Assembly: GCA_029561255.1 (NCBI GenBank)
Contig: JAKQJH010000134.1
Span: 1 to 64,000, forward strand
Direction: 5' to 3'
DNA: 64,000 nt
DNA from: Bacteroidota bacterium
GTDB lineage: Bacteria > Bacteroidota > Bacteroidia > Chitinophagales > Chitinophagaceae
Shown piece by piece: positions 1,699 to 33,271 of the stretch; within the stretch, counting starts at the first letter, position 1, and the number at the start of each line of letters is the position of its first letter. A program made the position numbers and the translations under genes. A model generated the notes under the pieces. That model worked only from the letters and a program-made list of their open reading frames with translations, was not told the DNA's origin and made no database searches.

Positions 1699-1942
1699 GC
1701 GGACCGGATCCCGAATCGGTTCGGGACGACCTCCGCCGTGACAGGTACACGCCATAGACATAAAAAAAGCTCCACATTTTTGTGAAGCTTTTTTCTTGCG
1801 GATCGGATCCCGAATCGTTTCGGGACGACCTCCGCCGTGACAGGTACACGCCATAGACATAAAAAAAGCTTCACATTTTTGTGAAGCTTTTTTCTTGCGG
1901 ACCGGATCCCGAATCGGTTCGGGACGACCTCCGCCGTGACAG
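1699..1942 (-). repeat. Three tandem copies of the tRNA-Asp 3' half, each with a terminator and with the T-arm replaced by a palindrome
   Basis: Three copies begin (plus-strand view) at 1699, 1798 and 1897 with a 99-bp period; the intact tRNA-Asp follows 84 bp later at 1981. Each copy keeps the tRNA 3' acceptor strand (GCGGACCGG or GCGGATCGG on plus) and the anticodon/variable region (CGACCTCCGCCGTGACAG on plus), but the T-arm is replaced by TCCCGAA-N4-TTCGGGA at 1709-1726, 1808-1825 and 1907-1924. Copies at 1699 and 1798 are followed by the 17-nt spacer GTACACGCCATAGACAT and a hairpin identical in design to the tRNA-Asp terminator (1762-1794, 1861-1893). Open reading frames across it are chance products of the repeat. 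The rest of the 1463-1981 spacer (1463-1660) holds nothing I can assign. Confidence 0.9.
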
Positions 1943-1946
1943 GGCA

Positions 1947-1977: not shown

Positions 1978-1981
1978 CTTG

Positions 1982-2055
1982 CGGACCGGACGGGACTCGA
2001 ACCCGCGACCTCCGCCGTGACAGGGCGGCATTCTAACCAACTGAACTACCGATCC
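1982..2055 (-). tRNA. tRNA-Asp(GTC)
   Basis: Full cloverleaf on the minus strand: acceptor GGATCGG/CCGGTCC with one T-G pair, D-arm GTTC..GAAT, anticodon arm with loop CTGTCAC (anticodon GTC), T-arm CGGGTTCGAGTCCCG, discriminator G. CCA is not encoded. It is preceded by a good promoter at 2141-2173 and followed by its own terminator and by three partial copies of its 3' half. Confidence 0.96.
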
Positions 2056-31246: not shown

Positions 31247-31259
31247 AATACGCTGTTTG

Positions 31260-31330
31260 CACGGGCAGAGAGATTCGAACTCCCATCAACGGTTTTGGAG
31301 ACCGCTATTCTGCCATTGAACTATGCCCGT
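31260..31330 (-). tRNA. tRNA-Trp(CCA)
   Basis: Minus strand cloverleaf: acceptor ACGGGCA/TGCCCGT, anticodon stem GCGGT/ACCGT with loop CTCCAAA (CCA), discriminator G. 71 nt. Located between tuf and secE, the standard Bacteroidota position. A partial copy with hairpin insertions precedes it. Confidence 0.95.
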
Positions 31331-31350
31331 TTTTAATACTTTATTTTAAG

Positions 31351-31456
31351 AACTCCCATCAATCCCGGAGGTCCGGGACTATTCTGCCATTGAATGCTGA
31401 CGAAGCTGCGCTTGTCCGCATCCCGACAGGCTTTGCCTCGTCGGGACTATGCCCGT
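31351..31456 (-). pseudogene. tRNA-Trp partial copy with palindromic inserts
   Basis: Retains, in order on the minus strand, the 5' acceptor and start (ACGGGCATAG), the D-side TTCAATGGCAGAATAG and the TTGATGGGAGTT after the anticodon arm. The anticodon arm is replaced by TCCCGGA-CC-TCCGGGA (31363-31378), and a 52-bp insert (31395-31446) between acceptor and D-arm consists of two adjacent hairpin-forming units: TCCCGAC..GTCGGGA (31421-31446) and TGCGGAC..GTCAGCA (31395-31420). No anticodon remains, so it cannot serve as a tRNA. Confidence 0.85.
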
Positions 31457-32716: not shown

Positions 32717-32841
32717 TGTTATCGGTTTTAAAGTTGTGTTTTACAATTATTGTTTTTTTATCAGGAAGCCTTCAGTATTGTTACCACCGGCCATCTTTCA
32801 ACACATTGTTTTTCAATTTTTTAACTGCCTCAAAAAAACTG

Positions 32842-32913
<72 letters not shown>

Positions 32914-32929
32914 TTCTTTACACGTTTAG

Positions 32930-32984
32930 CTGGCAGACCTCTTCTCCCGTACCTACGGGATGCTCCACCACTGAGCTACAACGG
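32930..32984 (-). pseudogene. tRNA-Thr(GGT) partial copy with palindrome in place of the anticodon arm
   Basis: Minus strand: GAAGCCGTTGTAGCTCAGTG, then GTGGAGCA (real: GTAGAGCA), then TCCCGTAGGTACGGGA (32960-32945) in place of the anticodon arm, then GAAGAGGTCTG as in the real tRNA. The T-arm and 3' acceptor are missing. Also repeats the short 5' flank GTAAGAA (real: GTAAAGAA), so a duplication of the gene start is indicated. Confidence 0.87.
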
Positions 32985-33034
32985 CTTCTTACAGCCGGCA
33001 GCCAGCAGTACACAGTATTCAGCCAGCTGAGGCT

Positions 33035-33077
33035 GACTGCCAACTGCCAACTGCCAACTGAAGGCTGATTACTGACA
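33035..33077 (-). repeat. Heptamer tandem repeat after tRNA-Gly
   Basis: Minus strand from 3 nt past the tRNA-Gly 3' end: TAATCAG, CCTTCAG, TTGGCAG, TTGGCAG, TTGGCAG. Three perfect TTGGCAG units with period 7; same consensus as at 2343-2410. Confidence 0.85.
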
Positions 33078-33152: not shown

Positions 33153-33156
33153 TTTT

Positions 33157-33266
33157 ACCCACCGAAGCTTTAGCGAAGGTGGGTTTGTTTCTAAGAACTT
33201 TTTATGATGTCCTACTTCACCGAAGCTAGGTAGGACGCTTCCCTCTTTCGCTAAAGCTATAGAGGG
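33157..33266. repeat. Three hairpins with different stems and a shared 14-nt loop
   Basis: 33157-33184 has stem ACCCACC/GGTGGGT with loop GAAGCTTTAGCGAA. 33209-33236 has stem GTCCTAC/GTAGGAC with loop TTCACCGAAGCTAG. 33241-33266 has stem CCCTCT/AGAGGG with loop TTCGCTAAAGCTAT. Loops 2 and 3 are in the opposite orientation: reverse-complemented they read CTAGCTTCGGTGAA and ATAGCTTTAGCGAA, so the consensus is nnAGCTTyrGyGAA. They fill the spacer between tRNA-Gly and tRNA-Tyr. Confidence 0.85.
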
Positions 33267-33271
33267 CACTG

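Follow-up and report, generated by a model that had tools for sequence, protein, structure and literature searches.

Transfer RNA genes are classic landing sites of mobile DNA. In fungal mitochondria, mobile ORFs that carry a duplicated gene end occur at atp6, atp9, cox2 and nad3 of Glomus and at atp6 of Allomyces (PMC3630166). In cyanobacteria, a group I intron carries a homing endonuclease with specificity for a tRNA anticodon region (cited in PMC3984707). The prokaryotic Slx1 group consists of minimal single-domain GIY-YIG proteins (PMC1564403). Here, we describe a partial copy of tRNA-Thr(GGT) in the window (the whole 64,000-nt stretch of DNA that was analysed), in which a palindrome, called the cap below, stands in the anticodon arm. 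This copy is probably a displaced tRNA half left by a family of tRNA-invading selfish elements in Bacteroidota. Judged by their sequences, the elements are best read as homing-like parasites of tRNA genes that would rebuild the tRNA they invade. The window contains the following tRNA features:

32841..32913, minus strand: intact tRNA-Thr(GGT) gene (ARAGORN and Rfam)
32914..32933, minus strand: 20-nt spacer between the Thr copy and the gene, with the duplicated 5' flank AAAGAA at its end
32934..32985, minus strand: putative displaced 5' half of tRNA-Thr (self-BLAST and reading; present in congener G027)
32945..32960, minus strand: Thr cap palindrome TCCCGTAGGTACGGGA, in place of 13 nt of the anticodon arm
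31259..31330, minus strand: intact tRNA-Trp(CCA) gene (ARAGORN and Rfam)
31350..31456, minus strand: putative displaced 5' half of tRNA-Trp, with a cap palindrome at 31363-31378 and an insert (self-BLAST and reading)
1981..2055, minus strand: intact tRNA-Asp(GTC) gene (ARAGORN and Rfam)
1699..1945, minus strand: three tandem tRNA-Asp 3' pieces, period 99 (self-BLAST and reading)

The Thr copy is 52 nt long, lies directly 5' of the intact gene and comprises the 5' strand of the acceptor, the D arm, the palindrome and 11 nt from the stem and variable loop. Read in tRNA sense, it runs GCCGTTGTAGCTCAGTGGTGGAGCA, then the palindrome TCCCGTAGGTACGGGA (a 7-bp stem with a 2-nt loop), then GAAGAGGTCTG; the same stretch of the intact gene reads GCCGTTGTAGCTCAGTGGTAGAGCA CTTCCTTGGTAAG GAAGAGGTCTG. 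The original prediction, made from the window alone, reported such a palindrome-bearing partial copy, which is real (32934-32985, minus strand), and claimed that the palindrome exactly replaces the anticodon arm. This holds for the 5' border, which is exact and falls after nt 26, but not for the 3' border, where four anticodon-stem bases (GAAG) are retained, so that 13 nt rather than the full 17-nt arm are replaced. Its claim of a duplication is borne out by the partial copy beside the intact gene and by the few 5' flank bases that are repeated (TAAGAA and AAAGAA). The copy is found in this genome and in congener G027 and is absent from G018 and from others. Between the Thr copy and tRNA-Gly, the window carries a short tandem repeat at 33035-33065 (GACTGCCAACTGCCAACTGCCAACTGA), and comparable spacers rich in CTGCC/CTGAC occupy this interval in congeners.

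The two further cases implied by the prediction, the Trp and Asp copies, are likewise real, and its claim of recurrence in independent tRNAs holds. In the Asp pieces, TCCCGAAnCGATTCGGGA-type palindromes at 1709-1726, 1808-1825 and 1907-1924 stand in for the T arm, and each of the three units has a terminator directly followed by ATGTCTATGGCG, the position at which the ORF of complete elements starts. The window has nine occurrences of the form TCCCG N4-16 CGGGA where 0.8 would be expected; none of 100 shuffles reaches this number, and six of the nine matches fall in the Thr, Trp and Asp tRNA pieces. Away from tRNAs, most TCCCG hairpins of this genome fall in coding DNA or terminators. An Rfam scan of this incomplete genome gave 25 tRNA-like matches, each of which was examined with its flanks and with no palindrome required. 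Capped copies were found at six tRNAs (Thr, Trp, Asp, Asn, Ala and Arg). The anticodon arm is exchanged for a palindrome with exact borders in the Ala, Arg and Trp copies, and tRNA-Ala is accompanied by three or more tandem 5' copies and one 3' copy. Whole-arm replacement, which had been raised as a possible rule, describes most copies but not those of Thr and Asn, which keep part of the stem.

Two further hairpin families were seen. The Trp copy has a 51-nt hairpin insert (31396-31446) beside its D arm, with a second palindrome at 31421-31446. This two-hairpin repeat (TCCCGACGAGGCAAAGCCTGTCGGGATGCGGACAAGC...; also at L288, L062 and L296) is dispersed over the contigs of G001, and relatives are found at this tRNA position in G018 (Trp) and L062 (Thr). 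Separately, intergenic hairpins at 33153-33270 of the window and at L043, L024 and L035 share a centre that hardly varies (TTCGCTAAAGCTA or its complement), flanked by variable, perfectly paired outer stems of 5-6 bp; at L024, a second palindrome, CCTGCCTGCCGGCAGGCAGG, lies in the middle of one such hairpin.

The capped arm is widespread. In the family, GAGCR followed by TCCCG..CGGGA is found in 71 of 195 genomes, counting a few matches in coding DNA, and the reversed control gives five matches in all. When tRNA-Ala was searched in 54 genomes with the D arm and variable loop fixed and the arm left free, normal arms and TCCCG..CGGGA arms were recovered and nothing else. Every variant arm is of this form and starts at the first base of the arm, as the claim of a single palindrome form in the place of the arm had anticipated. 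A scan of GTDB genomes returned at least 117 stretches, at least 97 of them in Bacteroidota among the matches listed. Matches in Campylobacterota, Bacillota and Bdellovibrionota proved to be genuine tRNA-Met genes and were rejected, and true capped copies beyond Bacteroidota occur, among the matches listed, in Omnitrophota, Verrucomicrobiota and several candidate phyla. At least four of the five bases after the palindrome match the variable loop of the gene in 125 of 140 copies among the matches listed. Annotation tools take some capped copies for tRNAs: ARAGORN calls them tRNA genes for Lys, Ser, Ile and even Stop (L067, L121, L200, L220, L075), and annotated tRNA sets of Bacteroidota may therefore be inflated or misassigned.

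The starts of the palindromes are not random, as had been predicted. Among 37 copies that keep the D arm, taken from loci chosen by the nuclease protein described below, the palindrome begins exactly at the first base of the arm in 27; in the remaining 10 it starts 2-11 nt further in (six), is missing (three) or gives way to an intact arm (one). An earlier count of 187 of 189 starts at this base was set aside, because the script examined starts 0 and 1 only; that set was also biased, many of its loci having been selected with a start-fixing pattern, and about two dozen of its members were neighbouring intact arms. The most frequent cap has a 7-bp stem. The TCCCG form in the anticodon arm is the commonest, but palindromes also stand in the T arm, T loop and D arm, and the stems CCCCG, TTCCG, CTCCG and TCCGCC also occur. 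Pure insertions of a palindrome into T, D or anticodon loops are seen in this genome's own Trp and Asn and at L069, L224 and L231. The stem sequence is strongly conserved across the phylum and the loop drifts. The interior of the cap is closer to the anticodon loop of its own parent than to those of other tRNAs (z about 10, from 124 non-independent pairs). From its sequence, the cap looks like an anticodon arm with a rewritten stem, rather than a foreign hairpin dropped in.

Many of these loci also carry a small nuclease gene, which was invisible to the original prediction: a profile search finds no GIY-YIG ORF near the Thr, Trp or Asp copies, nor anywhere else in the 64-kb window. The ORF encodes 80-90 aa with a single GIY-YIG domain (PF01541), and the catalytic residues Y6, Y17, G19, R27, H31 and E63 are invariant. 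The predicted nuclease fold has a pLDDT of 94, and its nearest solved folds are UPF0213 and Slx1, which rank above UvrC and I-TevI. With its minimal single domain and nearest modelled fold, the putative nuclease is assigned to the Slx1/UPF0213 family of GIY-YIG proteins. Plasmid and phage sequences gave no match to the nuclease, and a defence-system library gave a weak partial match at most. No group I intron is found in the tRNA; tRNA is the sole RNA family that Rfam finds. The GIY-YIG gene is the only ORF of a unit of 70-400 bp, and no integrase lies within the element, which disfavours a tyrosine-recombinase integrative element. The flanking repeats seen at the loci are direct, not inverted.

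To lessen circularity, genomes were searched by the nuclease protein profile alone. This profile derives from palindrome-selected loci, so the resulting sample of 71 ORFs is not fully independent; in it, tRNA sequence lies within 160 nt of 68 of the 71 ORFs and on both sides of 47. The isotypes involved are Ala, Lys, Val, Met, Arg, Pro, Asp, Ser, Asn, Leu, Phe, Thr and Glu. At most nuclease loci an intact tRNA adjoins the ORF, and from its sequence the host gene appears to stay functional. Two arrangements are found. In one, the tRNA is followed by a terminator, the ORF and a capped 3' half; in the mirror form (L241, L242, L244, L264), a capped 5' half precedes the ORF and the tRNA. At the loci that were read, the ORF lies between the tRNA gene and the 3' copy and starts right after the tRNA terminator, and its stop codon is frequently supplied by the TAG in the D loop of the capped half. 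Capped copies are present in 27 of 32 genomes with a strong nuclease match, compared with 16 of 65 without (p = 2e-8), and a strong match is absent from 16 of the 43 palindrome-positive genomes. Most capped 5' copies elsewhere are without an ORF. The Thr copy has none beside it, so its link to the nuclease rests on its anatomy and on this co-occurrence. Degraded GIY-YIG ORFs lie at the Ala and Asn capped copies of this genome. The Ala element (contig C407; L025/L040/L223) has an internal TAA and is followed by a second, truncated ORF, and the Asn element (contig C68; L019) is cut by the contig end. Related GIY-YIG ORFs and capped tRNA copies also share loci in the candidate phyla Uhrbacteria, Shapirobacteria and Magasanikbacteria (L176, L203, L210).

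The nuclease tree follows the tRNA isotype. It requires 37 isotype changes, compared with a mean of 68.5 after shuffling and with none of 200 shuffles as low, a contrast inflated by near copies; the Ala and Met clades each cross several bacterial families. At the level of sequence, features of homing endonucleases are thus present: a catalytic domain, a site beside the target gene and a phylogeny that follows the isotype. For tandem ORF copies, dN/dS is 0.12-0.25 (four pairs only). One deep, moderately supported group of nucleases has TCCCG caps in 8 of 23 cases, compared with 66 of 80 elsewhere (p = 2e-5). Because the type of cap differs between nuclease clades, its sequence appears to be tied to the nuclease lineage and could be a substrate, a protected site or a repair scar. 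Congeners differ in their copies: the Trp copy faces a seamless empty site in G027 and G009, and the three-unit Asp array of this genome has a single counterpart unit in G027 and no unit in seven other congeners. Such presence/absence polymorphism with clean empty alleles is found for the ORF-less Thr, Trp and Asp copies only.

Alongside the observed architecture, tRNA linkage, isotype-tracking tree and polymorphism among congeners, we infer how the elements cut, copy and move, and what the cap and the mini-elements do. A complete element would consist of a Slx1/UPF0213-type GIY-YIG ORF of 80-90 aa, a spare half of a host tRNA and a cap palindrome, usually TCCCG..CGGGA. It would split a tRNA gene, in most cases at the anticodon arm; on one side of the ORF, the element's own half would restore a complete tRNA, and the displaced host half would come to lie on the other, its arm replaced by the palindrome. 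The nuclease may cut an unoccupied tRNA gene, perhaps as cruciform arms, and repair from the element-bearing copy would then install the ORF and the replacement half. The host would retain a working tRNA, and the discarded half would be capped. The palindrome may stop this half from acting as a tRNA, may be the nuclease's own substrate or scar, or both, and repeated cutting could produce the arrays. The Thr, Trp and Asp copies of the window would be ORF-less relics or mini-elements, a reading adopted because the Asp units carry ATGTCTATGGCG where an ORF would start and because broken GIY-YIG ORFs lie at the Ala and Asn copies. One observation counts against this scheme: the rebuilt tRNA retains a normal anticodon arm, so protection of the element from its own nuclease needs explanation. 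A stronger version is held only tentatively, with the balance of judgement against it, namely that the elements form a new class of selfish DNA. Here, a structure-specific Slx1-type nuclease would be addressed to the hairpins (cruciforms) of tRNA genes, would make the cell dependent on the element by rebuilding the tRNA that it breaks, and would overwrite the anticodon arm of the discarded half with a clade-specific palindrome, with ORF-less units moved in trans to build arrays.

Other explanations account for parts of this pattern. The palindrome could be a separate mobile unit, of the REP or double-hairpin kind, that enters the hairpin loops of non-essential tRNA duplicates, with the tRNA pieces arising by ordinary tandem duplication and the nuclease being unrelated. 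The pure loop insertions, including those of this genome's own Trp and Asn, and the dispersal in G001 of the 51-nt insert of the Trp D arm are what such a unit would leave. Most caps, however, substitute an arm rather than add to it, their interior resembles the anticodon loop of the parent, and their type varies with the nuclease clade, which makes this account unlikely. Slightly harder to sustain is selection by the host, in which capped halves in the leader or trailer of a tRNA serve as regulatory or decoy RNA and the nuclease ORF is a secondary colonist. Such an RNA might compete with the folding or processing of the tRNA or act as a decoy for tRNA-cutting toxins, use of the hairpin then conserving the palindrome. 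Many copies do lie between promoter and gene, where they would be co-transcribed, and a stem conserved across a phylum above a drifting loop is in keeping with a functional hairpin. Against this, presence is patchy even inside a genus, many isotypes, 5' and 3' positions alike and several stem types are involved, and a host RNA does not predict that 68 of 71 nucleases are linked to tRNAs; both forms of this explanation are accordingly judged improbable.

The classic att pattern also pairs a regenerated tRNA with a partial copy on the opposite side, and the copies could be displaced att fragments of tRNA-using tyrosine-recombinase integrative elements (genomic islands or prophages). It is very improbable that they are: the unit of about 70-400 bp has no integrase, copy and gene are mostly less than 150 nt apart, the ORF matches neither plasmid nor phage, and att duplication does not put a palindrome in the place of an arm. 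Simple duplication and decay would fit the tandem arrays and the duplicated flanks, but the notion that the caps are chance hairpins in decaying tRNA pseudogenes is refuted by the recurrence of one stem at one tRNA position in at least 97 Bacteroidota stretches, by all the variant Ala arms and by the excess in the window, and has a negligible chance of being right.

If the tRNA-invading element is the correct reading, a parasite of tRNA genes, about 300 bp in size and spread across a phylum, that splits and restores its targets seems to be undescribed in the literature searched. This search, outside which preprints and most subscription papers lay, returned no description of tRNA-linked GIY-YIG elements with capped halves. 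Such a parasite would account for partial tRNAs and for small GIY-YIG proteins beside the tRNA genes of Bacteroidota. It offers a very small nuclease family with lineages sorted by tRNA isotype, and it makes the capture of an essential gene by a selfish element directly testable.

Each described system shares a part of this design. Integrative elements and prophages in tRNA genes likewise leave a regenerated tRNA and a displaced fragment; the elements described here differ in being tiny, in having no integrase and in placing a palindrome in the arm. Mitochondrial double-hairpin and repetitive hairpin-forming elements are, in the available text, also ultrashort mobile palindromes that settle in structured RNA genes, whereas the cap substitutes one defined arm and accompanies a nuclease ORF (PMC2800124, PMC5910586). 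Phage SegB-type enzymes, as far as the available account goes, are free-standing GIY-YIG nucleases associated with tRNA genes and with segmental amplification, but they are phage-encoded and are described with no split-and-rebuild structure, whereas the elements here have no phage match (PMC13096335). The cyanobacterial enzyme is a selfish nuclease that is similarly addressed to the anticodon region of a tRNA gene; it is borne by an intron, whereas here there is no intron and the tRNA would be rebuilt by a spare half instead of by splicing (PMC3984707). The closest working counterpart is the fungal mitochondrial ORF with a duplicated gene end. The fungal ORFs are inserted in mitochondrial protein genes, are mostly LAGLIDADG and, in the available text, have no palindrome cap and no reported 5' mirror form (PMC3630166). 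As in the scheme proposed here, the same text has an endonuclease ORF (one of them GIY-YIG) enter a gene and bring a new 3' end, with the native end displaced downstream (PMC3630166).
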